33,490 bases of DNA, from positions 1,341,864 through 1,375,353 of the forward strand of contig NC_022444.1 in the NCBI RefSeq assembly GCF_000468495.1, in the 5' to 3' direction. The translations under genes were made by a program, and so were the position numbers. This document shows positions 5,435 to 23,507 of this stretch, piece by piece. Below the pieces are notes generated by a model. It searched no databases. It saw only the letters and a program-made list of their open reading frames with translations, and was not told the DNA's origin. The DNA comes from Megalodesulfovibrio gigas DSM 1382 = ATCC 19364. Its GTDB lineage: Bacteria > Desulfobacterota > Desulfovibrionia > Desulfovibrionales > Desulfovibrionaceae. How positions within the stretch are numbered: position 1 is the first letter of the stretch; each line of letters opens with the position of its first letter.

Positions 5435-5446
5435 GGAGAGATTGCC

Positions 5447-7685: not shown

Positions 7686-9092
7686 TCAGCGCCGGACCTT
7701 GCCCGGGGTGGGCAGGCCGATCTGCTGCAGCCGGCGGTAGATGCTGGGCACGCTGAGGCCGGAAATCTGGCTGGCCCGGACCACATCCGGCCCGGTGATC
7801 TCCAGCAGCTGCTGAAAATACTGGCGATCCTGGGCCGCCTTGAATGCGTCATACGTGGACAATGGGGCCGGCAGGGCGGCTGGTGTTACGGGAGGGGACA
7901 GGACTGGGGCCGCCGCCTCAGCCTCGCCGATGGCGGACAGCCGCACATGCGGCGGCAGGTGTTTGGGATACAGCGCAGGATCCTGCCCGGCTTCGATGAC
8001 CGCTGCCTCCATGACATTGCCCAGCTCCCGGACGTTGCCGGGCCAGTCGTATCCACCCAGGGCCTGGAGCAGGTGCGGCGAGAGGAGTTTCTGCGGCAGC
8101 CGGTAACGCGAGCAGCTTTTGGCCGCGAAGTGCCGCGCCAGCAGCAGCAGATCGTCACCGCGCTCGCGCAGGGCCGGCAGGGTCACGTCCATGGTCCGCA
8201 GGCGGAAGAGCAGGTCGCCCCGGAAGGCGCCGGCCGCGGTCATGGCGTCCAGATCCCGGTTGGTGGCCGCCACCAGCCGAAAATCGCTGACCAGTTCCCG
8301 GGTGCCGCCCACGGGCCGGTAGCGACGTTCCTGCAGCACGCGCAGCAGGGACTTCTGCAGGGTCAGGGGCAGTTCGCCCACTTCATCCAGAAACAGCACC
8401 CCACCATGGGCCGCGGCCACCAGCCCGGCGTGGTCGGCATGCGCCCCGGTGAAGGAGCCGCGCATGTGCCCGTAGAGCTGGCTTTCCACCAGTTGTCTGG
8501 ACATGGTGGAGCAGTCCACCACCACAAACGGCCCGCCGGCCCGGGGGCTGTTGGCGTGCACGGCCTTGGCGGCCAGTTCCTTGCCCACGCCGGTTTCGCC
8601 GGTGATGAGCACATTGGCCTCGCTCTGGGCGGCCCGGGCCAGCAGGTGCTTGACGCGGCTCATGCTGGCCGACTCGCCAAGGATGCCACAGGCGTTGAAA
8701 GCCTGGGGCAGGGCGGCATCCTGGTGCCGGGAGGCGCGATAATGCAGGGCCCCGGCCAGGGAGGCCTTGACCTGGTGCGGCGAGGCCGGCTTGCGCAGGT
8801 AGTCCCAGGCGCCGCAGGCCAGGGCTTCCCGCGCGCCGTAGTTGTCGCCCAGGCCGGTGATGACGATGATTTCCGGCCGCGTGGCCGTGGCGGCCAGCTG
8901 ATCGATGGCGGCCTTGCCGTCGCCGTCGGGCAGGCCGAGATCCAGATAGATCACATCCGCCCCGGCCTCGGCCTGGGCCAGCCCCTCCTGCAGATTGGCG
9001 GCAAGCAGCGTCTCGTGACCGAGATCGGCAAAACAGCGGGCCAGGCTGCTGCGGATGAAGTCGTCGTCGTCGATGATCAGCACTCGGGCCAT
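7686..9092 (-). CDS. Sigma54-dependent response regulator (NtrC type)
   Basis: Transcription activator of 468 residues. Its receiver domain (about 3-115) has the acidic pocket DDDD near residue 8, phospho-acceptor D51 and K at KPAS. The AAA+ domain (about 140-375) has Walker A GETGVGKE and Walker B GGVLFLDEVGELP. The sigma54-contacting loop reads GSFTGA (212-217) instead of GAFTGA, a conservative change. A C-terminal Fis-type helix-turn-helix (about 425-465) contains ASQISGLSVPSIYRRLQQIGL. It lies 13 nt behind the hybrid kinase gene and has GAAGGA before its ATG. A candidate sigma54 promoter sits beyond the kinase, before the divergent metabolic cluster, so that cluster is the likely target. 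Confidence 0.94.
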   Translation of the reverse strand: MARVLIIDDDDFIRSSLARCFADLGHETLLAANLQEGLAQAEAGADVIYLDLGLPDGDGKAAIDQLAATATRPEIIVITGLGDNYGAREALACGAWDYLRKPASPHQVKASLAGALHYRASRHQDAALPQAFNACGILGESASMSRVKHLLARAAQSEANVLITGETGVGKELAAKAVHANSPRAGGPFVVVDCSTMSRQLVESQLYGHMRGSFTGAHADHAGLVAAAHGGVLFLDEVGELPLTLQKSLLRVLQERRYRPVGGTRELVSDFRLVAATNRDLDAMTAAGAFRGDLLFRLRTMDVTLPALRERGDDLLLLARHFAAKSCSRYRLPQKLLSPHLLQALGGYDWPGNVRELGNVMEAAVIEAGQDPALYPKHLPPHVRLSAIGEAEAAAPVLSPPVTPAALPAPLSTYDAFKAAQDRQYFQQLLEITGPDVVRASQISGLSVPSIYRRLQQIGLPTPGKVRR

Positions 9093-9105: not shown

Positions 9106-11103
9106 CTACCGGCAATGCCGGCGGACGCATTCCGCCAGGGTTCGCGGGGTCATGGGTTTCATGAGGAAATCCACCACCCCGGCGGCGATGGCCCGGCGCT
9201 CCAGGGCCGGTTCCACGTGGCCGGTGCACATGACGATTCTGGCCGAGGCGTCCAGGGCCAGCAGTCGGGACGCCATCTCCAGGCCGTCCATGTCCGGCAT
9301 GAAGTGGTCGGCCAGCACAAGGTTGAACCGGCCCCCGGCCTGGCGGAAGGCCTCCAGCCCCTCGGCGGCGCTGGCGGCGGCCGTCACCTGATAGCCGGCC
9401 TCCCGCAGCACCCGGTCCATGGCCTGGAGTGCGGCCTGATCGTCATCCACCAACAGCAGATGGCCGTGTTCCGGGCCGGCATGCCGCGGCGGCGGGGTCC
9501 GGGCGGGCAGGGGGGCTGGTCCGGGCGGTCCGGGCGGTCCGGGCGGTCCGGGGGACTCGGCCGGGCCGGCCTCGCAGCGGGGCAGGAGGATTTCAAAGAC
9601 CGTGCCCCGGCCCGGGACGCTGTTCACGGCGATGATGCCGCCGCAACTGGCCACGATGGAATGCACCACGGCCAGCCCCATGCCCGTGCCGCCGGCGCCT
9701 TTTTTGGTGGTGTAGAAGGGCTCGAAGATCCGTTCCAGCCGGTCCGGTTCAATGCCCTGGCCCGTGTCCGCCACGCGCAGGGCCGCGTACTCGCCCGGCG
9801 CAAGGCCGGGATGGGGCGCAGCCTGCCCGCTGCCGGCCGCCTGCCCCTGCCCCTGCCCCTGTCCTTGCCCCGGCATGCGGAAGCCGCGCAGCTGCACGCG
9901 CAGCAGCCCGCCATCGGGCATGGCCTGCACGGCGTTGCGGCACAGATTGTCCAGCAGCTGCTGCATCTGGCCGGCATTGGCCAGCACGCAATCCTGGCCG
10001 GCGGCGGCATCGACCTCGCAGCGCAGATCCAGGCGGACGTTGCGGGGCAGGGAGGCGCGGAACAGGGCCAGATGCTCCTGCAGCAGCGGCTCCAGGCGCA
10101 GCGGTTCGCGGCTGACATGCTGCCGGCGGCCGAATTCCAGCACCTGTTCCACCAGATCCGCGGCGCGGTAGGCGGCGCGCAGGGCCTCGGCCAGGGGGGC
10201 GCGGTCTGCCTCTCCGGCCAGCCGGCCCAGGACGTAATCCAGGTTGAAGATGATGGGCACGAGGTTGTTGTTCAGATCGTGGGCAATGCCCCCGGCCAGC
10301 ACGCCGATGGCCCGCATCTTCTGGGCCTGATACAGCTCCCGCTCCACGCGCTTGAGCTCGGTGACGTCGATGCCCAGCTCCATCACCAGGGGCTCGCCGT
10401 GTTCGTCCTCGAAGGGATAATCGTAGACGTGAAAGGTCCGGCCCTGGCGGTCCGTAAACTGCCAGCTCTCGGTCTTGCCGGTCTCGAACACGCGGAAGGT
10501 AGGGCAGACCGGACAGGGCGAGGTGCGGCCGCCAAAGACTTCATAGCACAGCCGGCCCTCGGTGGGGCCGTACAGGTCGCGGGTTTTGCGGTTGGCATAG
10601 GCCACGGTGTAGTCGCGGCGCTGCATGTAGACGAAGATGGGCACCTCGTCGATGACGTTGTAAAACAGCTCGCGGCCCCGCTCCTTGAGGCGCTCGGCCT
10701 CGCGGCGCACTTGGCGTTCGGTCAGCAGGGCCTTCTTGAGGCGCTCGGCGTCCGGCACCTCCCGAAATTCCACCACCGCCTGACCGCCACCGTCGCGGTC
10801 CGCCGGGATGCAGCGACAGCGGTACGGCTGCTGGCCGGCATCCAGGTACCAATCCGGACAGGGATCCCAGATGAAGGCCTGCTCCTGGCCGGTGCGGCGG
10901 GCACGGTTCAGCCCCTGGGCCAGGGAGGCGGCCAGGGAGGGCGGCAGGCCGAGATCGGCCAGGCCGCGGCCGGAGGCCTGATCGTCCCCGCCAAGGAATG
11001 TGGCGCAGAAGGCGGGGTTGGCATAGGTCAGGCGGCGCTTGGCGTCGAAGCTGGCCAGGGGGCTGGGGCATCCCTCGGCAAAGTGCGCGAAACTGCAGGG
11101 CAT
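9106..11103 (-). CDS. Hybrid PAS sensor histidine kinase with C-terminal receiver
   Basis: A 665-residue kinase with no membrane segment, so it is probably cytoplasmic. It has an N-terminal PAS-like domain (about 1-115), a charged helix, a second PAS (about 143-255) containing a C197-P-V-C200 motif, and a HisKA region with H275 in GIAHDLNNNL. An ATPase domain follows (NLCRNAVQAM N-box, DTGQGI G1 box, GTGMGLAVVHSI). A proline-glycine linker then leads to a receiver with D599 in LVLADHFMPDMDG. Two low-complexity stretches are odd: GQ repeats (about 412-421) inside the ATPase domain and GPP repeats (about 517-529) in the linker. The ATG at 11103 has GGAGG 5 nt upstream; an earlier in-frame TTG lacks this. 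Confidence 0.93.
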   Translation of the reverse strand: MPCSFAHFAEGCPSPLASFDAKRRLTYANPAFCATFLGGDDQASGRGLADLGLPPSLAASLAQGLNRARRTGQEQAFIWDPCPDWYLDAGQQPYRCRCIPADRDGGGQAVVEFREVPDAERLKKALLTERQVRREAERLKERGRELFYNVIDEVPIFVYMQRRDYTVAYANRKTRDLYGPTEGRLCYEVFGGRTSPCPVCPTFRVFETGKTESWQFTDRQGRTFHVYDYPFEDEHGEPLVMELGIDVTELKRVERELYQAQKMRAIGVLAGGIAHDLNNNLVPIIFNLDYVLGRLAGEADRAPLAEALRAAYRAADLVEQVLEFGRRQHVSREPLRLEPLLQEHLALFRASLPRNVRLDLRCEVDAAAGQDCVLANAGQMQQLLDNLCRNAVQAMPDGGLLRVQLRGFRMPGQGQGQGQGQAAGSGQAAPHPGLAPGEYAALRVADTGQGIEPDRLERIFEPFYTTKKGAGGTGMGLAVVHSIVASCGGIIAVNSVPGRGTVFEILLPRCEAGPAESPGPPGPPGPPGPAPLPARTPPPRHAGPEHGHLLLVDDDQAALQAMDRVLREAGYQVTAAASAAEGLEAFRQAGGRFNLVLADHFMPDMDGLEMASRLLALDASARIVMCTGHVEPALERRAIAAGVVDFLMKPMTPRTLAECVRRHCR
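9518..9553. repeat. Four tandem 9-bp units in the kinase linker
   Basis: GGTCCGGGC occurs four times in tandem (last unit ends in G). On the coding strand each unit encodes Gly-Pro-Pro, giving a collagen-like linker between ATPase and receiver domains. Unit length is a multiple of three, so slippage would alter linker length without a frameshift. Confidence 0.85.
9841..9870. repeat. Five tandem 6-bp units inside the kinase ATPase domain
   Basis: CTGCCC occurs three times, followed by CTGTCC and TTGCCC. The coding strand reads as Gly-Gln repeats between the N-box and the G1 box of the ATPase domain, where a surface loop is expected. In-frame length variation between strains is plausible. Confidence 0.85.
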
Positions 11104-11255: not shown

Positions 11256-11300
11256 GATTCTCACCAATGATTCTCGATTCTAAGAATTGCGAGGGAATCA
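11256..11300 (+). promoter_or_regulatory. Candidate upstream activator site for the sigma54 regulator
   Basis: GATTC occurs at 11256, 11269 and 11276 on the plus strand and once inverted (GAATC, 11295-11299). A nested dyad runs from 11268 to 11300: outer TGATTC/GAATCA, then CTCG/CGAG, then ATTCT/AGAAT around the centre. Its centre is about 125 nt before the predicted transcription start, the usual place for enhancer sites of NtrC-type activators. Confidence 0.45.
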
Positions 11301-11381: not shown

Positions 11382-11397
11382 TGGCACGGCCCTTGAT
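11382..11397 (+). promoter_or_regulatory. Candidate sigma54 (-24/-12) promoter of the metabolic cluster
   Basis: TGGCACG, then 4 nt, then TTGAT matches the -24/-12 consensus (TGGCACG-N4-TTGCW) with exact spacing; the only core mismatch is A for C in the -12 GC. Predicted start is near 11408, about 69 nt before the ligase ATG. A sigma54-activator gene in the neighbouring divergent operon supports the assignment. Confidence 0.6.
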
Positions 11398-11476
11398 AGA
11401 GGGGAAGCATGCTCCGCATATTTGTCAAACAGCATGATTCCCGCCCGCGGATTGCCGCGGCAGAAAGGGTGCAGGC

Positions 11477-12859
11477 ATGACCATGTTCCAGCAACGCTCC
11501 AGTTCCCTCGACAGCATCAAGCAGACCATCCGCGAACACGACATCCATTTTGTCCGCTTCGAGCAGGCCGATCTGTACGGCGTCTCCCGCAGCAAGACCG
11601 TGCCCATCAACAGCTTCATGGATTACGTGGAAAACGGGCTGAACTTCTACGGCGGCCTGCTGGGGCTGGACATTCAGTCCATGGTGCCCAGCGGCACGGG
11701 CTATGCCGAGGAAGTGGCCTTTGCGGACCACTGCACCGTGCCGGATCTGTCCACGTTCACCGTGCTGCCCTGGGCCCCGCACACGGCGAACATCATTGTG
11801 GATCCCTACTGGTACGACGGCACGCCGGCCATGGCCTCCCCCCGGCTGCTGCTCAAGAAGCTCCTGCAGGCGTACGACGATCTCGGCTTCATCTGCCGCC
11901 TGGGCTACGAGTTTGAATTCTACGTGCTGCACAAGGACACCCGCCAGCCGGTCTACGGCGGGCAGCCCATCTTCGTGACGCTCAAGAACAACTTCGACAT
12001 GGACTTCACCTACGATCTGATGCGCAAGATGGAGCAGGCCGGCGTGCGCATCATCACCCAGAATTCCGAGCATGGCCCGGGCCAGCAGGAACTGAATCTC
12101 TATTACAAGGACGGCCTGCCCGCTGCGGACACGGCCATGCTCTTCAAGATGGGGGCCAAGGAAATCGCCCTGCAGCACGGCTACATGGCCACCTGGATGA
12201 CCAAGCCCTTCATCGATTCCAGCGGCTCGGGGTCCCACTTTCATGTGAGTCTCATCGACAAGCAGACCGGCAAGAATGTTTTTGATGATCCAGACGGCGC
12301 CTGCGGCCTGACGGATCTGGCCCGCAGGTTCCTGGCCGGCCTGCTCAAGCATGCCCGGGCCAACACCGTGTTCACCGCGCCCACCATCAACTGCTACAAG
12401 CGCTACCGCGTGAATTCCTTTGCCCCGCACAGCGCCACCTGGGGCATGGAGAACCGCACCGTGGGCATTCGCCTCAAGGGCTGCCGCGGCCAGAGCACGC
12501 ACTTTGAGAACCGGCTGGCGTGCGGCGGGTCCAACCCGTACCTGATGGCCGTGAGCACCCTGGCCGCCGGGCTGGAGGGGCTGCGGTCCAATCCGCCCCT
12601 GCCCGATCCCATCATGGACATCGCCTATACCAGAAACGACGTGCCCGTGCTGCCGCACAGTCTGGAAGAGGCCATCCGGGAATTCGAGCAGGATACGTCC
12701 CTGCACGAGGTGCTGGATCCGGAATTCGTCAAGCTGGTGCTGGCGGTGAAGAAGTTCGAGGTGCAGACGGCCAAGGCCCAGTTTGCGGATTACGGCACGC
12801 CGGCCTTCAACAACCGTGTGGATCCCTGGGAATGGGATTACTACATGGAACTGCTGTAG
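11477..12859 (+). CDS. Glutamine-synthetase-family ligase (probable gamma-glutamyl-amine/amide ligase)
   Basis: A 460-residue member of the glutamine synthetase superfamily, which activates the gamma-carboxyl of glutamate with ATP and joins it to ammonia or an amine. A beta-grasp N-terminal domain (ADLYGVSRSKTVPI) precedes the catalytic domain. GS signatures are visible: GYEFEFYV, HGPGQQELNL, GSHFHVS, ENRTVGIRLKG and ENRLACGGSNPYL. The motifs deviate from housekeeping GlnA, and the gene sits first in a transporter/catabolic cluster. That favours a GlnT/PuuA/GMAS-like role in which a substrate amine is glutamylated. The amine cannot be read from sequence. The C45-hydrolase gene follows after 12 nt. 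Confidence 0.85.
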   Translation: MTMFQQRSSSLDSIKQTIREHDIHFVRFEQADLYGVSRSKTVPINSFMDYVENGLNFYGGLLGLDIQSMVPSGTGYAEEVAFADHCTVPDLSTFTVLPWAPHTANIIVDPYWYDGTPAMASPRLLLKKLLQAYDDLGFICRLGYEFEFYVLHKDTRQPVYGGQPIFVTLKNNFDMDFTYDLMRKMEQAGVRIITQNSEHGPGQQELNLYYKDGLPAADTAMLFKMGAKEIALQHGYMATWMTKPFIDSSGSGSHFHVSLIDKQTGKNVFDDPDGACGLTDLARRFLAGLLKHARANTVFTAPTINCYKRYRVNSFAPHSATWGMENRTVGIRLKGCRGQSTHFENRLACGGSNPYLMAVSTLAAGLEGLRSNPPLPDPIMDIAYTRNDVPVLPHSLEEAIREFEQDTSLHEVLDPEFVKLVLAVKKFEVQTAKAQFADYGTPAFNNRVDPWEWDYYMELL

Positions 12860-12871
12860 GCGGGGGGCGAC

Positions 12872-14002
12872 ATGGAAGGCACCCTCCCCGCTGCTGCTCC
12901 TGTTTCCAGTTCCCCGCTGGTGGTGGACCTGGCCGGCACGCCCTATGAAATGGGCCTGACCCACGGCCAGGCCTGCCGCGAGCTGATCCGCGAATTCGCC
13001 GCCTCCGTGCTCCAGGTGCACCAGGCCAACAATCGCTTTCTGAAGGCCGAGCGCGAGGAGCTGACCGGCTTCTGCCTGCGCAATCTGGGGTTCCTGCAAA
13101 AGTGGTGTCCCGAGCTGGTGGAGGAGATGCGCGGCATCGCCGCCGGCGCAGGCCTGCCCTTCGAGGACATCCTGTACCTCAACTCCTTTTTGGAACTGGA
13201 GGATCTGCGCGCCCCCGGCCTGGGCGGCCGCACCATGCCCGATGCCCTGTGGGGCTGCACCACGTACAACGTGGCCCCTGCCGCCGCCGCCGGTGGGCAG
13301 GCATTGATCGGCCAGACCTACGACATGGAGCGCTACTACGAAAAGTTCGTGGTGCTGCTGCGCATCACGCCCCAAGACGGCCCGGCGCAGCTGGTGGTGA
13401 CCTTTGCCGGGGTGCTGGGCGTGAACGGCGTGAACGCCGCCGGGGTGGCCGCAGTCATCAACAAGGTGGTGGCCACGGACGCCCGGCCCGGGGTGATCTA
13501 CCCCTGCATCATGCGCCGGGCGCTGGCGTCCCGCCGCATCGGGGATGCCCTGGGCGCGGTGATCTTCTCCCCCCGGGCCACGGGCATGAACTATCAGCTG
13601 GCCGGCATGGGCGTGGCGTTCTGCGCCGAAGTCTCGGCCACGTCCTACGAGCTGTTGGAGTTCGACGGCGCCATCGCCCACACCAACCACTACCTGAGCC
13701 AGGCCATGCGCCGGTTCGAAACGCCCAACTGGCTCAGCCACGGCGGGTCCATGGTCCGTCGCCAGGTGGCCCAGGACTTCCTGGACCGCCACCGCGGGGA
13801 CATTACCCCGGCCCTGCTGGCGGAGCTGAGCCGCAATCACGTGAACCATCCGCGCTGCATCTGCGCGCATGGCTTTGACGGCGAGGCAGAAACCACAGCG
13901 TTCCACACCGTGTTTGCGGTGGTGATGGATCCGGCTGCCGGCTGGCTGGATCTGTGCGTGGGCAACCCCTGCCAGGGCGACTACCGCCGGCATCAACTCT
14001 GA
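12872..14002 (+). CDS. C45-family Ntn hydrolase / acyl-CoA:6-aminopenicillanate acyltransferase-like protein
   Basis: A 376-residue protein resembling the AAT/C45 family, whose members self-cleave before a cysteine and then hydrolyse or transfer amide-linked acyl groups. The candidate junction is G128-C129 in LWGCTTYNV, which would give chains of about 128 and 248 residues. GQTYDME and AHTNHYLSQAM fit family active-site segments. There is no signal peptide, so it should be cytoplasmic. It lies 12 nt after the GS-family ligase with a G-rich Shine-Dalgarno region. Together the pair could make and break an amide bond on an imported compound. A beta-lactam role is not implied. Confidence 0.82.
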   Translation: MEGTLPAAAPVSSSPLVVDLAGTPYEMGLTHGQACRELIREFAASVLQVHQANNRFLKAEREELTGFCLRNLGFLQKWCPELVEEMRGIAAGAGLPFEDILYLNSFLELEDLRAPGLGGRTMPDALWGCTTYNVAPAAAAGGQALIGQTYDMERYYEKFVVLLRITPQDGPAQLVVTFAGVLGVNGVNAAGVAAVINKVVATDARPGVIYPCIMRRALASRRIGDALGAVIFSPRATGMNYQLAGMGVAFCAEVSATSYELLEFDGAIAHTNHYLSQAMRRFETPNWLSHGGSMVRRQVAQDFLDRHRGDITPALLAELSRNHVNHPRCICAHGFDGEAETTAFHTVFAVVMDPAAGWLDLCVGNPCQGDYRRHQL

Positions 14003-14052
14003 AAATCCCCAGGTCCGCAACCGCTTCAACGCGATATTCCAAGAGGTGCAGC

Positions 14053-15621
14053 ATGCAGTCCAACCGAGCGAAGATTGATACCCTTTGTGCCGAGTACGAT
14101 GCCGGCGGCATGGATCGCCGCAGCTTTCTGAAGAAAATGGGCTTTTTGGGTGTGGCCGCCGTGGTGGCCAACGCTGTGAGCCTGTCTTCGTTGGGGGCCA
14201 CGCTGGCCTTTGCCCAGATCAGCGGGGCCGAGGAGCGCGCCTGGGAACTGGCCAAGGTGGCCGCGGCCAAGGCCACCAAAAAGACCCTGACCCTGCTCAT
14301 CCCCACGGGGTCCATCGGCAACATGACGCCTTACGTGGACAAGTGGAAGAACGAGCTGGGCATCACCCTGGAATTCATCGAGGAACCCGATGAGGTGGTG
14401 CACACCAAAGGCATGCAGGAAGCCGTGGCCAAGACCGGCCGCTACGACGTGATGATGCCCACGGCCATGTCCTATCCGGACTGGATCGATTCCGGCGTCA
14501 TCTACGACCTCACCGAATGGACTGAAAAATACCAGCCCGACCTGTTCCACAAGGAATGGGGCGTGGTGTTTCCGGCCAGCCATCATGCCCAGCTCTACAA
14601 CGGGCGCGTGGCCGGCCTGCTCAACGACGGCGACCAGATCACCCTGCTGTGCCGCGACGACTACCTGAAGAATCCCGAGAAGCAGAAGGCCTTTGCCGAC
14701 AAGTACGGCTACCCCCTGGCCGTGCCCTCCACCTGGGCCGAGTATTACAATCTGGCCGAGTTCATGCACGATCCGGCCAACAAGTTCTACGGCAGCCTGG
14801 AGTACCGCTCGCCGTACTACGTCAAATGGATGTTCATGCAGCGCCTCGTCTCCAAGGGCCGGCTGTACTTTGACGGCGACATGAACCCCACCTTCAATTC
14901 CGAAGAAGGGGTGGCTGCGCTGGAAGACATGCTCAAGATGAACCAGTACCTCCACCCGGACGCCTTCAGCTTCACCTGGTCCTCCAACTACAACGCCTTC
15001 GGCCGCGGCGAAGGCTTCATGAACATCGTCTGGCCCTCGGGCTTCAAGTACTCCAAGGCGCCTTCCACCGGGCCGGCCACCACGGGCAAGATTGCCGCCA
15101 CGGTCATGCCGGCGGACACCCTCAAGGACGGCACCAAGCTCTATGCCGGCCTGTTCTGCTGGGGCTACGGCTACGCCGTGTCCAGGTACTCGGCCAACCC
15201 CGAACTGGCCTATGCCTACGCCCAGTGGATGACCTCCCCCACCATCGGCGCGGACGCCATCCCCTACCTGGGCGGCTACTCCGATCCCTACCGCATCAAC
15301 CACATGCTCAAGCCCACCCAGCGCCTCATCGACACGTATTCCCCCGAATACCTGCAGACGCTGTACGACAACATGGTCAACACCGTGCCGGATTTCTGCA
15401 TCCCCGGCGGCTTCGAGTATCAGGACGCCCTGGACAAGCAGGTGCACGCCTGCATGACCGGCGACAAGAAGCCCAAGGAAGCCCTGGACGACGCCGCCAA
15501 GGCCTTTGAGCGCATCACCCGCCGCATCGGCAAGGACAAGGTCAAGAAGTCCTGGCTGGCCCTGGCCAAGAACCTGGCCGAGCCCATCCGCAAGGCCAGC
15601 GGCGCGGACAAGTGGAGCTAG
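14053..15621 (+). CDS. Tat-exported ABC transporter solute-binding protein
   Basis: A 522-residue periplasmic solute-binding protein, longer than most sugar-type binding proteins (about 400-450) and closer to the large GlpV-like group. The twin-arginine motif DRRSFLKK (R22-R23) follows a 19-residue hydrophilic extension, then a hydrophobic core ending TLAFAQ, so export should be by Tat in folded form. The mature part starts TLTLLIPTGSIGNMTPYVDKW, a typical extracellular binding-protein opening. GAGG lies about 6 nt before the ATG at 14053; M20 is an alternative start. Two permeases and two ATPases follow. The ligand is unknown; glycerol, polyol and amino-alcohol transport are possibilities from gene layout only. 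Confidence 0.87.
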   Translation: MQSNRAKIDTLCAEYDAGGMDRRSFLKKMGFLGVAAVVANAVSLSSLGATLAFAQISGAEERAWELAKVAAAKATKKTLTLLIPTGSIGNMTPYVDKWKNELGITLEFIEEPDEVVHTKGMQEAVAKTGRYDVMMPTAMSYPDWIDSGVIYDLTEWTEKYQPDLFHKEWGVVFPASHHAQLYNGRVAGLLNDGDQITLLCRDDYLKNPEKQKAFADKYGYPLAVPSTWAEYYNLAEFMHDPANKFYGSLEYRSPYYVKWMFMQRLVSKGRLYFDGDMNPTFNSEEGVAALEDMLKMNQYLHPDAFSFTWSSNYNAFGRGEGFMNIVWPSGFKYSKAPSTGPATTGKIAATVMPADTLKDGTKLYAGLFCWGYGYAVSRYSANPELAYAYAQWMTSPTIGADAIPYLGGYSDPYRINHMLKPTQRLIDTYSPEYLQTLYDNMVNTVPDFCIPGGFEYQDALDKQVHACMTGDKKPKEALDDAAKAFERITRRIGKDKVKKSWLALAKNLAEPIRKASGADKWS

Positions 15622-15666
15622 AGCAACAAGATCCTTGCGAGAGGGGAAACCTTTTGATTTTCCAAG

Positions 15667-15693
15667 AGGGGAGACGCGCTCTCCCCTTCCAAA
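15667..15693 (+). repeat. Intercistronic hairpin plus partial copy of the terminal repeat
   Basis: AGGGGAGA (15667-15674) pairs with TCTCCCCT (15680-15687) across a 5-nt loop. The 19-mer CGCGCTCTCCCCTTCCAAA (15675-15693) is identical to positions 3-21 of the left terminal repeat. It lies between the binding-protein and permease genes, where such stems commonly stabilise upstream mRNA or cause partial termination, giving more binding protein than membrane components. Confidence 0.65.
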
Positions 15694-15759
15694 ACGGTGA
15701 TGGTGGGTACACGATGCGGCCTAACCGGGCGGCATCGCAGCAAAGGGCAGGAGTTGAAC

Positions 15760-16698
15760 GTGGCTGAGAACACAATGCAAGCAACGGCCTCCGGCAGACC
15801 GCCCGGCGGTCTGAGCCGGGGCGCGGTGGTCAGGCTGCTCACCCTGCCGGGGACGCTCGTTTCCCTGGTGGTGCTGGTGACGCCGCTGCTGGTGGCCCTG
15901 TACATGAGCTTTACGGACTGGTCCCCCACCCGCAGCTCCTTTTTCGACGCCAGCTTTGTGGGCTTCGACAACTACAGCGAACTGACCATCTACGACACGC
16001 GCTTTCTGTACGCCGTATTGCGCACGCTGTGCATTGCCGCGGTGTGTCTGGGGCTGGAATTCGTCATCGGGCTGGGGCTGGCCGTGCTCTTTTTGCGGGA
16101 GTTCCGGGGCAAGTCCCTGCTGTTTTCGGCATTTCTTTCGCCCATGATGATCCTGCCCGTGGTGGTGGGATACACCTTCTGGATGCTCTTTCAGTCCAAC
16201 GGGCCCATCAATCAGATCGTTGAGCTGTGCTTCGGGCCGGGATCGAGTCCGGAGTGGTTCCGCAGCGCGCCCCTGGCCGTGTTGGCGGTCGTTATCACTG
16301 AAGTCTGGCACTGGACGCCGTTGTTTTTCCTCATCCTGCTTTCGGGATTGAACGCCGTGCCCGAAAACCCGGTGCGGGCGGCGGTCATCCTGGGGGCCTC
16401 GCCGCGGCAGGTGTTCTGGCGGGTGGTCATGCCCATGCTCAAGCCGGTCATCGTGGTGGCCTTCGTCATCCGGACCATGGAAATCATCAAGCTGTTCGAC
16501 GAGGTGTACATGCTTACCCGCGGCGGGCCCGGCTCGGCCACGGAAACCATCAGCCTGTACATCTACAAGCTGGCGTTCAACGACTTCCAGTTGGCGTACG
16601 GCGCGGCGGCGGCCTTTCTGGTGCTGCTGGGCTGCCTGCTGCTCATCCATCTGCTGCTTTCTCCGGTGCGGGACCAGCTGCTGAAAGGGGGACGCTGA
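15760..16698 (+). CDS. ABC transporter permease (sugar type, MalF-like)
   Basis: A 312-residue inner-membrane permease with about six membrane segments. The cytoplasmic coupling loop reads NPVRAAVILGASPRQVFWRVVMPML, a variant EAA motif (RAA) that docks on the ATPases. I chose the GTG at 15760 because AGGAG lies 6 nt upstream; earlier in-frame ATGs lack a ribosome site and run into the hairpin region. The stop overlaps the next start by 1 nt (TGATG), so the two permeases should be co-translated. Confidence 0.9.
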   Translation: MAENTMQATASGRPPGGLSRGAVVRLLTLPGTLVSLVVLVTPLLVALYMSFTDWSPTRSSFFDASFVGFDNYSELTIYDTRFLYAVLRTLCIAAVCLGLEFVIGLGLAVLFLREFRGKSLLFSAFLSPMMILPVVVGYTFWMLFQSNGPINQIVELCFGPGSSPEWFRSAPLAVLAVVITEVWHWTPLFFLILLSGLNAVPENPVRAAVILGASPRQVFWRVVMPMLKPVIVVAFVIRTMEIIKLFDEVYMLTRGGPGSATETISLYIYKLAFNDFQLAYGAAAAFLVLLGCLLLIHLLLSPVRDQLLKGGR

Positions 16699-17558
16699 TG
16701 CACGCCAAGAAACTTTCCCCGCTGCTGGCCGTAGTCATGGGCCTGGCCCTGGCCGTGACGTTGTTTCCGGTGTTCTGGATCGTGATGACGGCCGTCAAGC
16801 CGCCCATCGACTGGAACGCCTCCCCGGCCATCTGGATTCCTTCGGACCCCACGCACATCAACTTCATGACCCTGTTCGATCCCGACGCCATCCGGGCCTA
16901 TGGCGTGGGCGGGGTCAGCCAGTCGGCCACCAAGGCGGTGTGGGGCTCGGTGCGGGCGTCCATCATCGCCACGGCTCTGTCGGTGGGCATCGGGCTGTTC
17001 TCGGCCATCGGCATCACCCGCTACGGCAACGGCAGCAAGCTTGCGCCGCTGATCATCCTTTCGGGCCGCATGTTTCCGCCGGCGGCCATCGCCGTGCCGT
17101 TTGTGATCATCTTTTCCAACGTGGGACTGATAGACAGCTACGCCGGCCTCATCGCCATCTACACCGCCGCCACGCTGCCGTTTTCCACCTGGATGCTCAA
17201 AAGTTTCGTGGAGGACCTGCCCCGGGAGGTGGAGGAGGCCGCCATGATCGACGGCCGTTCCCGGCTCATGGCCCATCTGACGGTGACGATTCCCCTTATC
17301 CGCGGCGGCATCTTTGCCACCACGCTGTTCATCTTCATCCTGAACTGGTCGGAATTCATGTTCTCCCTGGTGCTGTCGTATACCAACATCAGCACCATTC
17401 CGGTGCAGTTGGCGCGCTATGTCACGGCCACGGCCGGCACGCTGTACGGCGTGCAGGCGGCCCTGGCCGTGCTGGCCATGGTGCCGCTGATGCTCATGGG
17501 CTACCTCATCCAGTCCCATCTGGCCCGGGGCATGACCTTTGGAGCGATCAAGCAATGA
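16698..17558 (+). CDS. ABC transporter permease (sugar type, MalG-like)
   Basis: A 286-residue second permease of the importer. It opens with a membrane helix (LLAVVMGLALAVTLFPVFWIVM) and carries a standard EAA coupling loop, EVEEAAMIDGRSRLMAHLTVTIPL. With the preceding permease it would form the heterodimeric channel. Its stop overlaps the first ATPase start as ATGA, a tight translational coupling. Confidence 0.92.
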   Translation: MHAKKLSPLLAVVMGLALAVTLFPVFWIVMTAVKPPIDWNASPAIWIPSDPTHINFMTLFDPDAIRAYGVGGVSQSATKAVWGSVRASIIATALSVGIGLFSAIGITRYGNGSKLAPLIILSGRMFPPAAIAVPFVIIFSNVGLIDSYAGLIAIYTAATLPFSTWMLKSFVEDLPREVEEAAMIDGRSRLMAHLTVTIPLIRGGIFATTLFIFILNWSEFMFSLVLSYTNISTIPVQLARYVTATAGTLYGVQAALAVLAMVPLMLMGYLIQSHLARGMTFGAIKQ

Positions 17559-18649
17559 ACAAGCCCAAACTGGAACTGGTGGCCCTGCGCAAGGACTACG
17601 CCGACGGCTCCGTGCCCGCGGTGGACGGCATCGACCTCGCCGTGCAGCCCGGCGAAACCCTGGCGCTGCTGGGGCCCTCCGGCTGCGGCAAGTCCACCAC
17701 CCTGAACATGATTGTGGGGCTGGAGTCTCCCACCTCGGGCGACATCCAGATAGACGGCCGCTCCATCCTCGGGGTGCCGGCCGGCCGGCGCAACGTGGGC
17801 ATGGTCTTTCAGGATTATGCGGTGTTCACCTCCATGACCGTGCGCAAGAACCTGGCCTTTGGGCTGGAGATCCGCAAGATGCCCAAGGCCGAGATTAACC
17901 GCGCCGTGCACGAGGTGGCCGAGCTGCTGGGCATGGCCGACCGTCTGGACGCCCGCGCCCGGGATCTGGGCGGCTCGGAGCTGCAGCGCGTGGCCATCGG
18001 CCGCACCCTGGCCACCCGGCCGGCCTTGCTGCTGCTGGACGAGCCCCTCTCCAATCTGGAATACGCCGCCCGCCTGGCCATGCGCCGCGAACTGCGCCGG
18101 CTGCAGCAGGAAATCGGTCTGACCATCATTTATGTGACGCACGATCAGATCGAAGCCCTGTCCCTGGCAGACCGCATCGCCGTGATGCGCGCGGGCAAGA
18201 TTCTGCAAGTGGAGAAGACCACCACCATGTACGACACGCCGGACCACGTGTTCGTGGCCAGCTTTCTGGGCTCGCCGCCCATGAACCTGCTGCGGGGCAA
18301 CCTGGAGGCCCACGGCCAGGGCATGCTGTTCAGGATCGGCCAGTTCCGCCTGCAATTGCCGCCGCCCAGGCCGGGCGTGGCCATGCCGCGGGGGGTGACG
18401 CTGGGGGTGCGGCCGGAATCCCTGCGGCTGGCGCCGGCCGAGACGGCGCCCATCACCGGGCAGGTGCTCCTGGCCGAGCCGCGCGGGCCGGAAGTGGTGC
18501 TCACCGTGGAGTCGGCCGCGGTGCAGCTCAAGGCCGTGGCGCCGTCGCAGAGCCATCCCAGGGAAGGGGCCATGGTGGGATTGGAGTTTGATCCTGCCTC
18601 CCTGGTCTTCTTCAGCAACGACACCAGCCACCGCATGGAGCTGTGTTGA
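17555..18649 (+). CDS. ABC transporter ATPase 1 (degenerate signature motif)
   Basis: A 364-residue MalK/GlpS-like ATPase with an N-terminal nucleotide-binding domain and C-terminal regulatory (TOBE/MOP-like) domain. Walker A is GPSGCGKST (40-48), the Q-loop Gln is Q86, Walker B ends D162-E163 and the switch His is H196; all are present. The signature, normally LSGGQ, is LGGSE (138-142), losing the serine and altering the glycines, and the D-loop reads SNLE rather than SNLD. GGAG lies upstream of the ATG at 17555, which overlaps the permease stop. Its own Walker site would be completed by the intact signature of ATPase 2. Confidence 0.93.
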   Translation: MNKPKLELVALRKDYADGSVPAVDGIDLAVQPGETLALLGPSGCGKSTTLNMIVGLESPTSGDIQIDGRSILGVPAGRRNVGMVFQDYAVFTSMTVRKNLAFGLEIRKMPKAEINRAVHEVAELLGMADRLDARARDLGGSELQRVAIGRTLATRPALLLLDEPLSNLEYAARLAMRRELRRLQQEIGLTIIYVTHDQIEALSLADRIAVMRAGKILQVEKTTTMYDTPDHVFVASFLGSPPMNLLRGNLEAHGQGMLFRIGQFRLQLPPPRPGVAMPRGVTLGVRPESLRLAPAETAPITGQVLLAEPRGPEVVLTVESAAVQLKAVAPSQSHPREGAMVGLEFDPASLVFFSNDTSHRMELC

Positions 18650-18650
18650 C

Positions 18651-19793
18651 ATGACCACCGCATTCGCCACAACTACTGCGCCGGTGCTGGCGCTGGAGCA
18701 GGTGCACAAGCGTTTTCGCGCCACCCAGGCCCTGCACGACGTCACCCTGACCGTGCCCGAGGCGTCCTTCACCGTGTTGCTGGGGCCGGCCGGGGCCGGC
18801 AAGACCACCACCTTGCGCGTCATTGCCGGGCTCGATCAGCCAGACGCCGGCCGCGTGCTGCTGGCCGGGCAGGACATGCGCGGCTGGGAGCCCAAGGATC
18901 GCAACGTCGCCATGATCTTTGACAATCTGGCGCTGTATCCCAACAAGACCGGCTTCCAGAACTTGGCCAGCCCCCTGCGCATCCGCGGCGAGAAGTCCGA
19001 GGCGATTCGGGAAAAGGTCGAGGCTATGGCCAAGACGCTGAAAGTGCTGCATATCCTGGACCGTCTGCCCAGGACCATGAGCGGCGGGGAGCGTCAGCGC
19101 ATTGCCCTGGGCCGGGCGCTCATCCGCACGCCGCGGCTTTTTCTGCTGGACGAACCCCTGTCCAGCCTGGACGCCATGCTGCGCATCGAACTGCGGGCCG
19201 AGCTCAAGCGCCTGCAGCGCGAATGCGGTGCGACCTTCCTCATGGCCACGCCGGACTATACCGAAGCCCTGGCCATTGCGGATACCGTGGCCCTGCTGCG
19301 GGAGGGCCGGGTGGTGCAGCTGGCCGGGCCGCAGACGCTGTATGACCTGCCCGCGGACCGCGAAGTTGCCCGCTTTGTGGGCGCGCCGCAGATCAACTGC
19401 CTGCCGGCCCGGTATGTGCCGGGGCAGGGCAGGGTGGAGGCGGCCGGCGGCAGCATCCGTGCGCCGCGGGCCTTTGTGGAGGCCTTCGGCGAGGCGGAGA
19501 CGGCCTTTGAATTGGGCCTGCGGCCCGAGCATCTGGCCCCGGCCGATCCCGACCGCGCTGCCCTGCGGGCCGAAGTGATTGATGTGGAGCCCCTGGGCCT
19601 CAAGTCCGTGCTCACGGTGCGCAACGAGGATGCCGAGCTGCGCGTGGTGGTGGAGACGGCGACGCTGCCGCGTCTGGGCCTTGCCGTGGGCGCATCCCTG
19701 GGCGTGACGGTGACCAATCCTGACGCGTTGCTGGCCTTCGACCTGCAATCCGGCCGACGCATCGCACCGGTCCAAGCGATGGCGGCACCATAG
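18651..19793 (+). CDS. ABC transporter ATPase 2 (degenerate Q-loop and switch)
   Basis: A 380-residue MalK/GlpT-like ATPase. Walker A is GPAGAGKTT (45-53), the signature MSGGE (143-147) is near canonical, and Walker B D167-E168 is intact. The Q-loop glutamine is replaced by D91 (MIFDNLALYP), and the switch histidine by P201 (MATPDYTEA in place of VTHDQTEA). A regulatory domain follows (LRPEHLAPAD). GGAG precedes the ATG. The defects complement those of ATPase 1, so an asymmetric heterodimer with one complete and one degenerate ATP site is likely. The paired-ATPase layout recalls GlpS/GlpT glycerol importers. Confidence 0.92.
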   Translation: MTTAFATTTAPVLALEQVHKRFRATQALHDVTLTVPEASFTVLLGPAGAGKTTTLRVIAGLDQPDAGRVLLAGQDMRGWEPKDRNVAMIFDNLALYPNKTGFQNLASPLRIRGEKSEAIREKVEAMAKTLKVLHILDRLPRTMSGGERQRIALGRALIRTPRLFLLDEPLSSLDAMLRIELRAELKRLQRECGATFLMATPDYTEALAIADTVALLREGRVVQLAGPQTLYDLPADREVARFVGAPQINCLPARYVPGQGRVEAAGGSIRAPRAFVEAFGEAETAFELGLRPEHLAPADPDRAALRAEVIDVEPLGLKSVLTVRNEDAELRVVVETATLPRLGLAVGASLGVTVTNPDALLAFDLQSGRRIAPVQAMAAP

Positions 19794-19803
19794 GCGCGGG
19801 CGC

Positions 19804-20760
19804 ATGATCAATCTCTTTGTCACCTACCGCTGCAACCTGGCCTGCCCGTACTGTTTTGCCCGGCCCCTGGCAGCCCGTCATCCGGGGGACATCACGCCGG
19901 AGCGTTTCGCCGCCTTTCTGGACTGGGCCAGCCGCGCCGCCGTGCCGGCTGTGGCCTTTCTGGGCGGCGAGCCGACGCTGCATCCGCATCTGGCGGCCAT
20001 GATCCAGGCCACGGCCGAGGCCGGCATGGCCGCGGTGCTCTTCAGCAATGGCCTGTTCTCCCGGGAGCTGGTCCGCCGCCTGGCTCCGCAGGTGTCGAAT
20101 TTCGTCATCAACTACAACAACCCCGAGTGCTACGCCCGCGGTCAGCAGGAGATGCTGCACGGCACGCTGTCCACCCTGCGGGAGCTGGGGGCGCGGATCA
20201 CCTTTTCCAAGAACTTTTCGCCGCAGTTGTCGGCATGGGACTATCTGATGGACGCCATCGAGCGCTACGGCGTCAGCGCCGTGCGGTACGACATCTCCCG
20301 CCCTGCAGCCGATGCCGCCAACGATTTCTGCCGTCCCGAAGACGCCCGCCGGATGCTGGGCCGGGTGGTGGACTTTGTGCGGGCCTGCGAGGCCAGGGGC
20401 GTGCGCACGGGGCTGGACTGCAGCATCCGTCTGTGCGATCTGGACACCGCAGACCGGCGCTACCTGGAGCAGGTGTCCATGAAGTTTCGGGGCATTTGCC
20501 ATCCGTCCATGGACGTGCATCCCGATCTTTCCGCCTCCTATTGCCTGCCCATGCATGACGTGCAGGTGCCGGACGTGACCGCCTTTGCCGATGCCGCTGC
20601 CCTGATGCGCCACTTCGCCCAGACCGTGCGGCCCCTGCGCACCGGGCATGCCCCGGCTGGCTGCGCTGAATGCGAGGAATACCTGCGCCGCTGCCAGGGC
20701 GGGTGTCTGGCCCTGCTGCGTGCGCAGGCGCCGGCTGTTCACAAGGAGTATTTGCCATGA
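19804..20760 (+). CDS. Radical SAM enzyme with SPASM-type auxiliary cluster domain
   Basis: A 318-residue cytoplasmic enzyme. The SAM-binding [4Fe-4S] motif CNLACPYC supplies C10, C14 and C17, and FLGGEPTLHP follows as the SAM-contact GGEP. The C-terminus carries C232-x14-C247 and C287-x2-C290-x6-C297-x3-C301, a SPASM-like spacing expected to hold auxiliary Fe-S clusters. Relatives mature peptides or proteins or oxidise small molecules. No candidate precursor peptide is nearby, so maturation of the adjacent Mo/W enzyme or direct catabolic action are the alternatives. The ribosome site is weak. Its stop overlaps the next start as ATGA, which argues for a functional link to the molybdoenzyme. 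Confidence 0.9.
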   Translation: MINLFVTYRCNLACPYCFARPLAARHPGDITPERFAAFLDWASRAAVPAVAFLGGEPTLHPHLAAMIQATAEAGMAAVLFSNGLFSRELVRRLAPQVSNFVINYNNPECYARGQQEMLHGTLSTLRELGARITFSKNFSPQLSAWDYLMDAIERYGVSAVRYDISRPAADAANDFCRPEDARRMLGRVVDFVRACEARGVRTGLDCSIRLCDLDTADRRYLEQVSMKFRGICHPSMDVHPDLSASYCLPMHDVQVPDVTAFADAAALMRHFAQTVRPLRTGHAPAGCAECEEYLRRCQGGCLALLRAQAPAVHKEYLP

Positions 20761-23507
20761 GCGTCCGCACCGTTGTCACCACATGCACCCGGGACTGTCC
20801 CAACACCTGCGGCCTGCTGGCCACGGTGGAGGGCGACCGGCTCACCCGTCTGGCCGGCGATCCTGCCCACCCGTTCATCAAGGGCAAGGTCTGCCGCAAG
20901 GCCATGCGCTACATCGAGCGCGTCTACAGCCCGGAGCGGATCACCCGGCCCATGCTGCGCCGCGGGGACCAATGGGAAATCGTCTCCTGGGATACGGCCC
21001 TGGATCTGATTGCCGGGCGCATGCACCGCATCCGGGACGAGTCCGGCCCCGAAGCCATCCTGTATTACCAGGGCTTCGGCGAGCGCACTGCGCTGAAGTT
21101 GCTGAACAAGTATTTTTTCAACCTGTTCGGTGGCGTCACCACCATGCACGGCACCCTGTGCGGCGGCACGGGGCAGGCGTCCCAGAATCTGGACTATGGC
21201 GAGCGGGTGTCCCATGATCCGCTGGACCACCTCCACAGCGCCTCCATGGTCCTCTGGGCCCGCAACCCCGTGACCACCAACATCAGCCTGGCGCCCATCG
21301 CCCGCGACGTTGCCCGTCGTGGCGGCCGGGTGCTGCTGGTGGATCCCGCCCCCACCAAGTCCGCGAGTCTGGCCAGCCGGCACATTGCCCCCCGGCCCGG
21401 CGGCGATGCCTTCCTGGCCCTGGCCGCGGCCCGGCTGATCCTGGATGCAGGGGCCGAGGACCGCGCCTTCCTGGAGCAGCATGCCGAGGGGCTGGACGGC
21501 TATCTGCGTCTGGTGCACCGCTGGGACGTGGCCGAGTTGTGCCGCTTGGCCGGCGTGCCCGTGGCCGACGCCGAGCACCTGGCCGAGACGCTGATGACCC
21601 AAAAACCCACGTCCATCCTGCTGGGCTGGGGCTTGCACCGTCACGTGCAGGCGCATCTGACCATCCGGGCCATCGATGCCCTGGGCGCGGTGAGCGGGAA
21701 CATTGGCGTGGCCGGCGGCGGCGTGAGCCAGGGCTTTGAGGAGTATGGCCCCTACGATCAGCACTACTGGGGCGATTCCCTGCGCCCGCCGCGGCGTACC
21801 CTGCTCATGCCCCGGGTGGGCGAGGAGATTCTGGCGGCCACCGATCCGCCCATCCGCATGATTTACGTCACCGCGGCCAACCCCGTGTGCACCGCGCCAC
21901 GCTCGGACAAGGTGGCCCAGGCCTTCCGTCAGGCGGAATTCGTGGTCTATTCCGGCCATTTTCTGGACGATACCGCCGCCCTGGCCCATGTGTTCCTGCC
22001 GGCCACCACCTTTCTGGAAGAAGAGGATGTGGTCGCCAGCTACGGCCACAACTATGTTGGTCCCATCACGCCGGCCATCGCGCCCGTGGGGCAGTGCAAG
22101 TCCGAGTTCCGCATGTTTTACGAGCTGGCCGCGCGGTTCGACTTTGCCGACCAGTTCCGCAAGCCCGAGGCCGAGTGGCTGGAGCGCATCTGCGCCCCCA
22201 TCCGTCAACAGGGCTGTTCCCTGGAGCAGCTGCGGCAGGGCGCGTTCCGGCTGGATGCGCCGATGGTCCCCTTTGCGGACCGCACCTTCCCCACGCCGTC
22301 GGGCCGGTTCAGACTGGTGGGAGATCTTGCGGAGATGGAGGCCATGGCCGACGCGCTGGGTGCGGCGGATCCTGCCCGTCCCTTCCGTCTGTTGACCATC
22401 GCCCCGCATCGCTTCATCTGTTCGGAACGGACCATGGCCGAACACGAGCCGCTGCCTGAGGTCCAGTGCAACGCTGCCGTGGCGGCGTCCCTGGGATTGG
22501 AAGACGGCGACGCCGTGCGCCTGCACAGCGCCGAGGGCCAGGCCGCGGCCCGGCTGCGCACCCGGGAGGATCTCCGGCCGGATATCCTGGTGGCCGAGCG
22601 TGGCGGCTGGACCCGGGCCGGGCACGATCTGAACCGGCTGATCAAGGACGTGGCCAGCCGAGTGGGAAACGGCACGCCGTACTACGAAGCCACCGTGGGG
22701 CTGGAGCCGCTGCCGTCGTCCTGCTCCGGGAGCCCTCAGGCCTCGCCGTGCAGGCCGCCGCAGGTGCTGGTGATCCAGCACGGGCTGCATTCCCTGGGCG
22801 GCAATTTCCTGAAGCATCTGGAACAGCAGGGCTGCCGTCTCCACACGGTGCGCGCCTTCGAGGGCGAGGCCCTGCCGCACACCCCGCAGGACTACGCCGC
22901 CCTGGTGGTCATGGGCGGGCCGCAACACGCCTGGGACGACGAGGCCTGGCCGCACATTCCACCCTTGCTGCGGCTCATGCGGGAATTTGATGCCCTGGGC
23001 CGGCCCGTGGCCGGGGTGTGTCTGGGGGCCCAGCTCCTGGCCCGGGCCTGGGGCGGGGAGTGCTTCGCCATGGAGGCCCTGGAGTTCGGCTTTGTGCAGC
23101 ATGCCGTCACCGAGGCCGGGCAGGTCGATCCCGTGCTGGGGCCGGCGCTGCCCCTGCCGCGGCTCATGGAGTTTCATCAGGACTCCTTCCGCCTGCCGCC
23201 GGAAGCCACGCTGCTGGTGCGGGGCGAGGCCTGCGAGGCCCAGTGCTTCCGCGTGGGCCGGGTCTCCTACGGCTTCCAGTTCCATCTGGAGGTGGACGCC
23301 GCCACCGTGGCCCACTGGACAAGGCTGCTGCGCGAGGGCGCGGTGGAGACGTATCGTCAGTACCGCGAGCAGCATGACGAGGCCTGTTTCGAGACCCTTG
23401 CCGCCGAACTGCCCGTGCTGGCCGATCGTGGCGAGCGCTTCTGCCGGGAGATCGTCGCCCGTTGGCTGGCCCAGACCCAGACCCAGACCCAGGTCCAGGC
23501 CCATTGA
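20757..23507 (+). CDS. Molybdopterin (bis-PGD) oxidoreductase fused to class I glutamine-amidotransferase domain
   Basis: A 916-residue cytoplasmic fusion. Residues 1 to about 660 form a DMSO-reductase-family enzyme: C10, C14, C18 and C46 (Cx3Cx3Cx27C) bind a [4Fe-4S] cluster, and C135 in GTLCGGTG is the probable Mo/W ligand. The usual cofactor-binding segments follow (FLPATTFLEEEDVVAS, PTPSGRFRL). There is no Tat signal. Residues about 669-916 form a GMP-synthase-like amidotransferase or gamma-glutamyl-peptidase domain with C755 in GVCLGAQ and H843/E845 in FQFHLEVD. The linker is continuous with no stop or frameshift. AAGGAG precedes the ATG at 20757. The reaction is unknown. Confidence 0.9.
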   Translation: MSVRTVVTTCTRDCPNTCGLLATVEGDRLTRLAGDPAHPFIKGKVCRKAMRYIERVYSPERITRPMLRRGDQWEIVSWDTALDLIAGRMHRIRDESGPEAILYYQGFGERTALKLLNKYFFNLFGGVTTMHGTLCGGTGQASQNLDYGERVSHDPLDHLHSASMVLWARNPVTTNISLAPIARDVARRGGRVLLVDPAPTKSASLASRHIAPRPGGDAFLALAAARLILDAGAEDRAFLEQHAEGLDGYLRLVHRWDVAELCRLAGVPVADAEHLAETLMTQKPTSILLGWGLHRHVQAHLTIRAIDALGAVSGNIGVAGGGVSQGFEEYGPYDQHYWGDSLRPPRRTLLMPRVGEEILAATDPPIRMIYVTAANPVCTAPRSDKVAQAFRQAEFVVYSGHFLDDTAALAHVFLPATTFLEEEDVVASYGHNYVGPITPAIAPVGQCKSEFRMFYELAARFDFADQFRKPEAEWLERICAPIRQQGCSLEQLRQGAFRLDAPMVPFADRTFPTPSGRFRLVGDLAEMEAMADALGAADPARPFRLLTIAPHRFICSERTMAEHEPLPEVQCNAAVAASLGLEDGDAVRLHSAEGQAAARLRTREDLRPDILVAERGGWTRAGHDLNRLIKDVASRVGNGTPYYEATVGLEPLPSSCSGSPQASPCRPPQVLVIQHGLHSLGGNFLKHLEQQGCRLHTVRAFEGEALPHTPQDYAALVVMGGPQHAWDDEAWPHIPPLLRLMREFDALGRPVAGVCLGAQLLARAWGGECFAMEALEFGFVQHAVTEAGQVDPVLGPALPLPRLMEFHQDSFRLPPEATLLVRGEACEAQCFRVGRVSYGFQFHLEVDAATVAHWTRLLREGAVETYRQYREQHDEACFETLAAELPVLADRGERFCREIVARWLAQTQTQTQVQAH
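23472..23501. repeat. Tandem 6-bp repeat at the 3' end of the fusion gene
   Basis: CAGACC occurs three times, followed by CAGGTC and CAGGCC, encoding a QTQTQTQVQA tail immediately before the stop. It is probably a disordered tail generated by slippage. Confidence 0.85.

Follow-up and report, generated by a model that had tools for sequence, protein, structure and literature searches.

The closest described relatives of the locus reported here are aerobic pathways in which a compound is ligated to glutamate, oxidised and then released (PMC11335346, PMC6776027). The systems for aniline, chloroaniline and 1-naphthylamine (AtdA1-A5, DcaQT and NpaA1-A5) set a GoaS-type ligase next to a type 1 glutamine amidotransferase (GATase) and an oxidative module. 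The isopropylamine (Ipu) pathway of Arthrobacter and Paenarthrobacter has the GoaS ligase IpuC and GATases, and its gamma-glutamyl amide is oxidised before it is released. In the Puu putrescine pathway (PuuA-PuuD) glutamate is likewise ligated to an amine, and the product is later hydrolysed. We analysed a stretch of 33,490 nt from Megalodesulfovibrio gigas DSM 1382 = ATCC 19364 (NC_022444.1; this whole stretch is called the window) that holds a block of nine same-strand genes for a GoaS-type ligase, a C45 hydrolase, an importer, a radical SAM (S-adenosylmethionine) enzyme and a molybdenum or tungsten (Mo/W) oxidoreductase fused to a GATase. Our reading, to which we give a probability of about 0.6, is that the block encodes an oxygen-independent counterpart of the gamma-glutamyl-amine catabolic pathways, induced through sigma54 and a two-component system. 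The sequences directly support its standing as a conserved unit, its promoter and the subgroup of its ligase; they also show that its catalytic motifs are intact and that the GATase depends on the block.

The pathway logic is that of the known aerobic pathways; in the open-licence literature that we searched we found neither its anaerobic composition nor the Mo-GATase fusion nor the operon, nor any paper on this combination of genes. The Atd, Dca and Npa systems differ in using an O2-dependent Rieske dioxygenase and an unfused GATase, and have no C45 hydrolase, radical SAM enzyme, Mo enzyme or importer of this kind. The Ipu pathway has a cytochrome P450 with ferredoxin and reductase, an amino-acid permease, and a PuuD-like hydrolase besides the type 1 GATase. 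As for Puu, PuuA is only 27% identical to the block's ligase, PuuD is of the C26 type, and the flavin oxidase and aldehyde dehydrogenase of that pathway are absent from the block.

A further counterpart lies on a plasmid of Rhizobium sp. ACO-34A (CP021374 190950-202068), which has an importer 80% identical to that of the block, a standalone type 1 GATase, a GoaS-like ligase and an amide hydrolase. Given this level of identity, the two importers probably take the same ligand. The Rhizobium locus differs in that its amide hydrolase is an amidase-signature enzyme and not C45, its ligase is 40-42% identical, ferredoxin and serine hydroxymethyltransferase genes are present, and there is no radical SAM or Mo enzyme. 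The comparison thus points to importer, ligase, GATase and amide hydrolase as a constant core, to which the radical SAM and Mo enzymes would be an addition in the order of M. gigas.

The ligase and the GATase domain

All coordinates given without a locus name are those of the window, and the nine genes of the block are on its + strand. The first (11477..12859) encodes a 460 aa member of the glutamine synthetase (GS) superfamily (PF00120) whose best match in the PDB is NpaA1 (8WWU), a glutamyl-organic-amide synthetase. GoaS enzymes have lost the flap Glu and Asp50' of GS, and most carry an extra N-terminal motif (PMC11335346). All three marks are found in the block copies examined. The flap motif, GYEAP in housekeeping GS, has become N(S/T)FAP, with Phe in place of Glu in 19 of 19 block ligases (that of the window and 18 others). 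Asp50' is lost, the FDGSS of the genome's housekeeping GS aligning with FYGGLL of the window ligase, and the N-terminal loop insertion (the 15th motif) is present, at 92 residues vs 83 in the housekeeping GS (+9), as in PuuA and IpuC. The ligase also misses the curated GS cut-offs (266 vs 469.6 for type III and 230.5 vs 429.15 for type I). Since it has the GoaS marks and lacks the ammonia-site residues, an ordinary ammonia-fixing role is unlikely, in agreement with the preliminary description of this DNA, for which an ordinary nitrogen-assimilation enzyme would have been a refutation. In Thermomicrobium roseum (L102 5873-11344) a GoaS-like ligase (40%) lies near genes of tungsten aldehyde:ferredoxin oxidoreductase type, MoaD/ThiS and RidA, possibly another Mo/W-linked variant.

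The preliminary description had proposed, by analogy with Puu, that glutamate is attached to a compound and later taken off. This general logic is well supported by the pairing of a GoaS ligase with a GATase in several known pathways, but the analogy with Puu and PuuD fails in detail. The ligase scores far below the cut-off of the NCBIfam PuuA model GGputSyn (224.9 vs 650 bits). The GATase domain is 17.6% identical to PuuD, from which it is separated in the tree with full support; it has a GVCLGAQ motif and is missing the CRG motif of the C26/PuuD subgroup. We therefore rejected membership of the Puu/PuuD group for both proteins. The domain groups with the type 1 GATases of the Ipu, Polaromonas, Prescottella and Rhizobium loci, and its CHE triad is intact. 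A type 1 GATase and a GoaS-like ligase adjoin in the Ipu clusters of Paenarthrobacter and Microbacterium plasmid records, and the same pair is found in a Polaromonas Rieske locus, on the chloroaniline-type plasmid pNB8c with a ring-hydroxylating dioxygenase, in a methylamine-type locus of Ruegeria with glnT, in Prescottella with an amidase and in Streptomyces tendae with a carbon-nitrogen hydrolase. The GATase-like AtdA2 of the aniline system is reported to hydrolyse gamma-glutamylanilide (PMC11335346).

Promoter and regulators

The best sigma54 -24/-12 site of the window, TGGCACGGCCCTTGAT (11382..11397, + strand), reads TGGCACG-GCCC-TTGAT and is the only sigma54-type site scoring >=11/12 on either strand of the window. 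Its first base, 11382, is where the preliminary description had started the cluster. Of 18 other loci, 16-17 have an equivalent site 85-107 bp 5' of the start of the ligase gene. In 15 of 19 loci an ATTCT-N-AGAAT palindrome lies some 110 bp further upstream of the sigma54 site, whereas shuffled sequences yielded 0.7 on average; in the window these probable upstream activator sites, assigned from conservation and alignment, span 11256..11293 (+ strand). Divergent from the block are the genes of an NtrC-type sigma54 activator, a response regulator (7686..9092, - strand, from the open reading frame and gene model), and of its partner, a PAS-type histidine kinase with a receiver domain (9106..11103, - strand, domains assigned from sequence). 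Of 20 related block-holding loci, 16 carry orthologs of this pair at the same divergent position; the pair had been left out of the preliminary gene set. Promoter, palindrome and divergent regulators together lend strong support to a dedicated switch for the block.

The nine same-strand genes, closely spaced and under sigma54 control, were found just as first described, with intergenic gaps of 12, 50, 153, -1, -4, 34, 10 and -4 bp. Within the operon no sigma70-like promoter is conspicuous, and an Rfam search of the window returned no RNA family. Upstream of the regulators the window holds cytochrome bd oxidase genes (cydAB-like, 4103-6457), in a presumed anaerobe.

Distribution of the block

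Among 297 genomes of the same order the importer binding protein occurs in 23, all 23 of which also have the Mo-GATase gene, an association far beyond chance. The entire block was read directly, with its gene order unchanged, in about 20 loci, and a few more are split by contig ends. Together with its regulators it is present in about 20 genomes from three families of the order, and the distribution is patchy (12 of 55 genera). Ligase, C45, importer and radical SAM genes are neighbours in related genomes, present together or absent, and always accompanied by the Mo-GATase fusion, which is the co-occurrence that had been put forward as a check. The ligase, C45 and radical SAM genes track the binding protein with two exceptions. 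In one genome (G247) the block is fragmented over contigs. In the other (G216, L059 13650-16682) half a radical SAM gene (~150 aa) stands directly 5' of an intact Mo-GATase gene and the rest of the block is gone; judged by its sequence, this is an operon copy in decay.

When 395 genomes were drawn from the whole phylum, only the genome of the window itself and one other genus of its family had the block, and a scan of genome contigs with a single protein as query matched one sister genome. One distant genome in that draw, from another family of the phylum (G508, L104 3630-9251), has the importer alone, with a binding protein 79% identical, and no ligase or GATase gene was seen beside it. The Mo-GATase of L043 (family f4) groups tightly in the tree with that of L040 (family f1), which suggests horizontal transfer of the block. 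In two genomes, at L044 (5937-6635) and at its counterpart in L045, an extra standalone type 1 GATase lies between the C45 and binding-protein genes; it resembles the GATases of Rhizobium and Polaromonas more closely than the fused GATase.

The two halves of the fusion protein

The last gene (20757..23507; PF04879, PF00384, PF01568, PF00117) encodes a predicted cytosolic oxidoreductase with a Mo/W-bis-pyranopterin guanine dinucleotide (bis-PGD) cofactor (residues ~1-650; Mo ligand Cys135) joined to the type 1 class-I GATase (~668-916; triad C755/H843/E845). In the Mo-domain tree all fused proteins fall, together with several nested unfused ones, into a single clade of 45 with full support. Each of the 21 block-positive sequences in which the GATase triad is readable has it intact. 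It is broken in three block-negative sequences (L047, L061 and L064), and three more block-negative lineages (L074; L077; and L071-L073, L075, L076, L078 as one group) have no GATase domain at all. These losses and breaks amount to about six events, all of them in block-negative lineages. Such lineages account for 32% of the clade's branch length, and the probability of six events falling there by chance is ~0.001, on the assumptions that the events are independent and that the block is lost but never gained. At L064 (13989-16646) the triad reads R-H-G, with Cys and Glu lost, within an intact reading frame of 894 residues.

The cysteines of the cluster and the Mo ligand are intact in every sequence, including the block-negative ones. 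Since the GATase decays without the block while these cysteines stay intact, the two halves appear to be maintained for different ends, the GATase for the pathway of the block and the Mo domain for something that outlives it. The proposed role of the Mo enzyme as a dedicated enzyme of the pathway is weakened, because the gene is kept intact in many genomes without the rest. Formate dehydrogenase (FdhF/FdhA) shares with the Mo domain the Mo-bis-PGD fold, the [4Fe-4S] cluster, the Lys next to the fourth Cys and a Cys/Sec ligand. It differs in the Arg at position 333, which the Mo domain does not have, and in having no fused GATase. This identity was rejected because Gly136 takes the place of the catalytic His in the window and in all fused copies when aligned with 1AA6. 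Mo sister groups without a GATase (47-54% identical; L079-L083, L081, L086-L088) are common in the order and stand alone near unrelated genes, and the neighbours of lone Mo genes (transporters, nif, cell-wall and other genes that follow position) gave no shared functional clue.

These patterns bear on whether two units were joined by chance, an importer, ligase, C45 and radical SAM unit on the one hand and a separate housekeeping Mo enzyme on the other, with the fused GATase hitchhiking and having no role in the pathway. The Mo-GATase stands alone in at least 17 genomes, Mo orthologs without a GATase exist, and Rhizobium has importer, ligase and GATase without a Mo enzyme, all of which would fit. 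However, the fusion is present in every importer-bearing genome, the radical SAM and Mo-GATase genes overlap by 4 bp in the window, and GATase decay is confined to block-negative lineages, so that we regard a chance union as unlikely. We consider it slightly less likely still that the GATase works like that of classical amidotransferases, as a glutaminase whose ammonia is passed to the ligase or the Mo domain. Ammonia supply is the usual role of a class-I GATase and the triad is intact, but the ligase has no ammonia-site residues, the Mo domain is kept in genomes where the GATase is broken or missing, and PMC11335346 reports gamma-glutamyl-amide hydrolase activity for a type 1 GATase that neighbours a GoaS ligase.

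Hydrolase, importer and radical SAM enzyme

The C45-family Ntn (N-terminal nucleophile) amide hydrolase/acyltransferase (12872..14002) passes the curated model NF040521 with 220.6 bits (cut-off 85). Its predicted nucleophile is Cys129 of the 376-aa frame, and the autoprocessing motif G-C-T-T is kept in 20 of 20 aligned sequences. The importer consists of a twin-arginine solute-binding protein (14053..15621; PF01547), two ATP-binding cassette (ABC) permeases (15775..16698 and 16698..17558; PF00528) and two UgpC/MalK-like ATPases (17555..18649, which is UgpC-like, and 18684..19793; both PF00005 and TOBE_2). In the binding protein the RR pair is invariant, as are 326 of 522 positions across 20 sequences. 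The radical SAM enzyme (19804..20760; PF04055) has its CX3CX2C motif at C10-C14-C17 and a SPASM-type array of auxiliary cluster cysteines (C195, C206, C211, C232, C247, C287, C290, C297 and C301), every one of them invariant in 20 sequences. Matches to this enzyme and to the Mo domain in plasmid records were distant, and the two loci viewed were uninformative.

Proposed pathway

In the catabolic pathway that we favor, the binding protein, exported by twin-arginine translocation, and the UgpC/MalK-like importer would take up an amine or an amide-bearing compound. The GoaS-type ligase would use ATP and glutamate to form a gamma-glutamyl amide on the amino group of the compound, and the C45 hydrolase would cleave an amide, either to free the amine from an imported acyl amide or to release the processed product. 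The redox step that P450s or Rieske oxygenases perform in aerobes could fall to the radical SAM enzyme, and possibly to the Mo domain as well. Finally, the type 1 GATase domain would hydrolyse the gamma-glutamyl amide, so that glutamate is recycled or build-up is prevented, as proposed for AtdA2. For the redox step of the pathway itself the radical SAM enzyme, being tied to the block, is a better candidate than the Mo domain. A more specific version, in which the radical SAM enzyme replaces the oxygenase and the Mo-GATase fusion oxidises and then unloads a glutamylated intermediate within one polypeptide, is rather doubtful.

Several points weigh against this proposal. The substrate, every reaction and their order are inferred, as is the anaerobic transformation, and single transcription of the nine genes is a prediction from genes that look like one sigma54-controlled unit. 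The radical SAM enzyme has no close match to any characterised dehydrogenase. The Mo domain survives loss of the block with all of its cofactor residues intact, so that it may not act in the pathway. A paired sign test of GATase loss on the tree gave p = 0.125, with low power, and GATase branch-length ratios, taken as a measure of relaxed evolution, did not differ significantly between block-positive and block-negative genomes (p = 0.14).

SPASM enzymes are often biosynthetic and a glutamate tag could serve as a protective group, but that the block makes or detoxifies a compound, with ligase and radical SAM enzyme building a glutamylated product and the importer acting as a salvage system, is the least probable of the alternatives, as catabolism is favored by the sigma54 control and by the central place of a binding-protein importer in the operon, the related loci read show no conserved exporter or biosynthetic partner nearby, and related GoaS loci look catabolic.

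Significance

Very strong conservation of the binding protein, which extends even across phyla, makes the substrate question a testable one. Where the operon has been lost the GATase has decayed repeatedly, a clean natural experiment on the separate maintenance of the two halves of a fusion protein. GoaS/GATase pathways with a known oxidative step, those for aniline and isopropylamine, use oxygenases. If our reading is true, radical SAM and Mo chemistry would be linked to glutamylated intermediates, and a conserved oxygen-free counterpart of these pathways would account for the use or detoxification of certain amines or amides by sulfate reducers.

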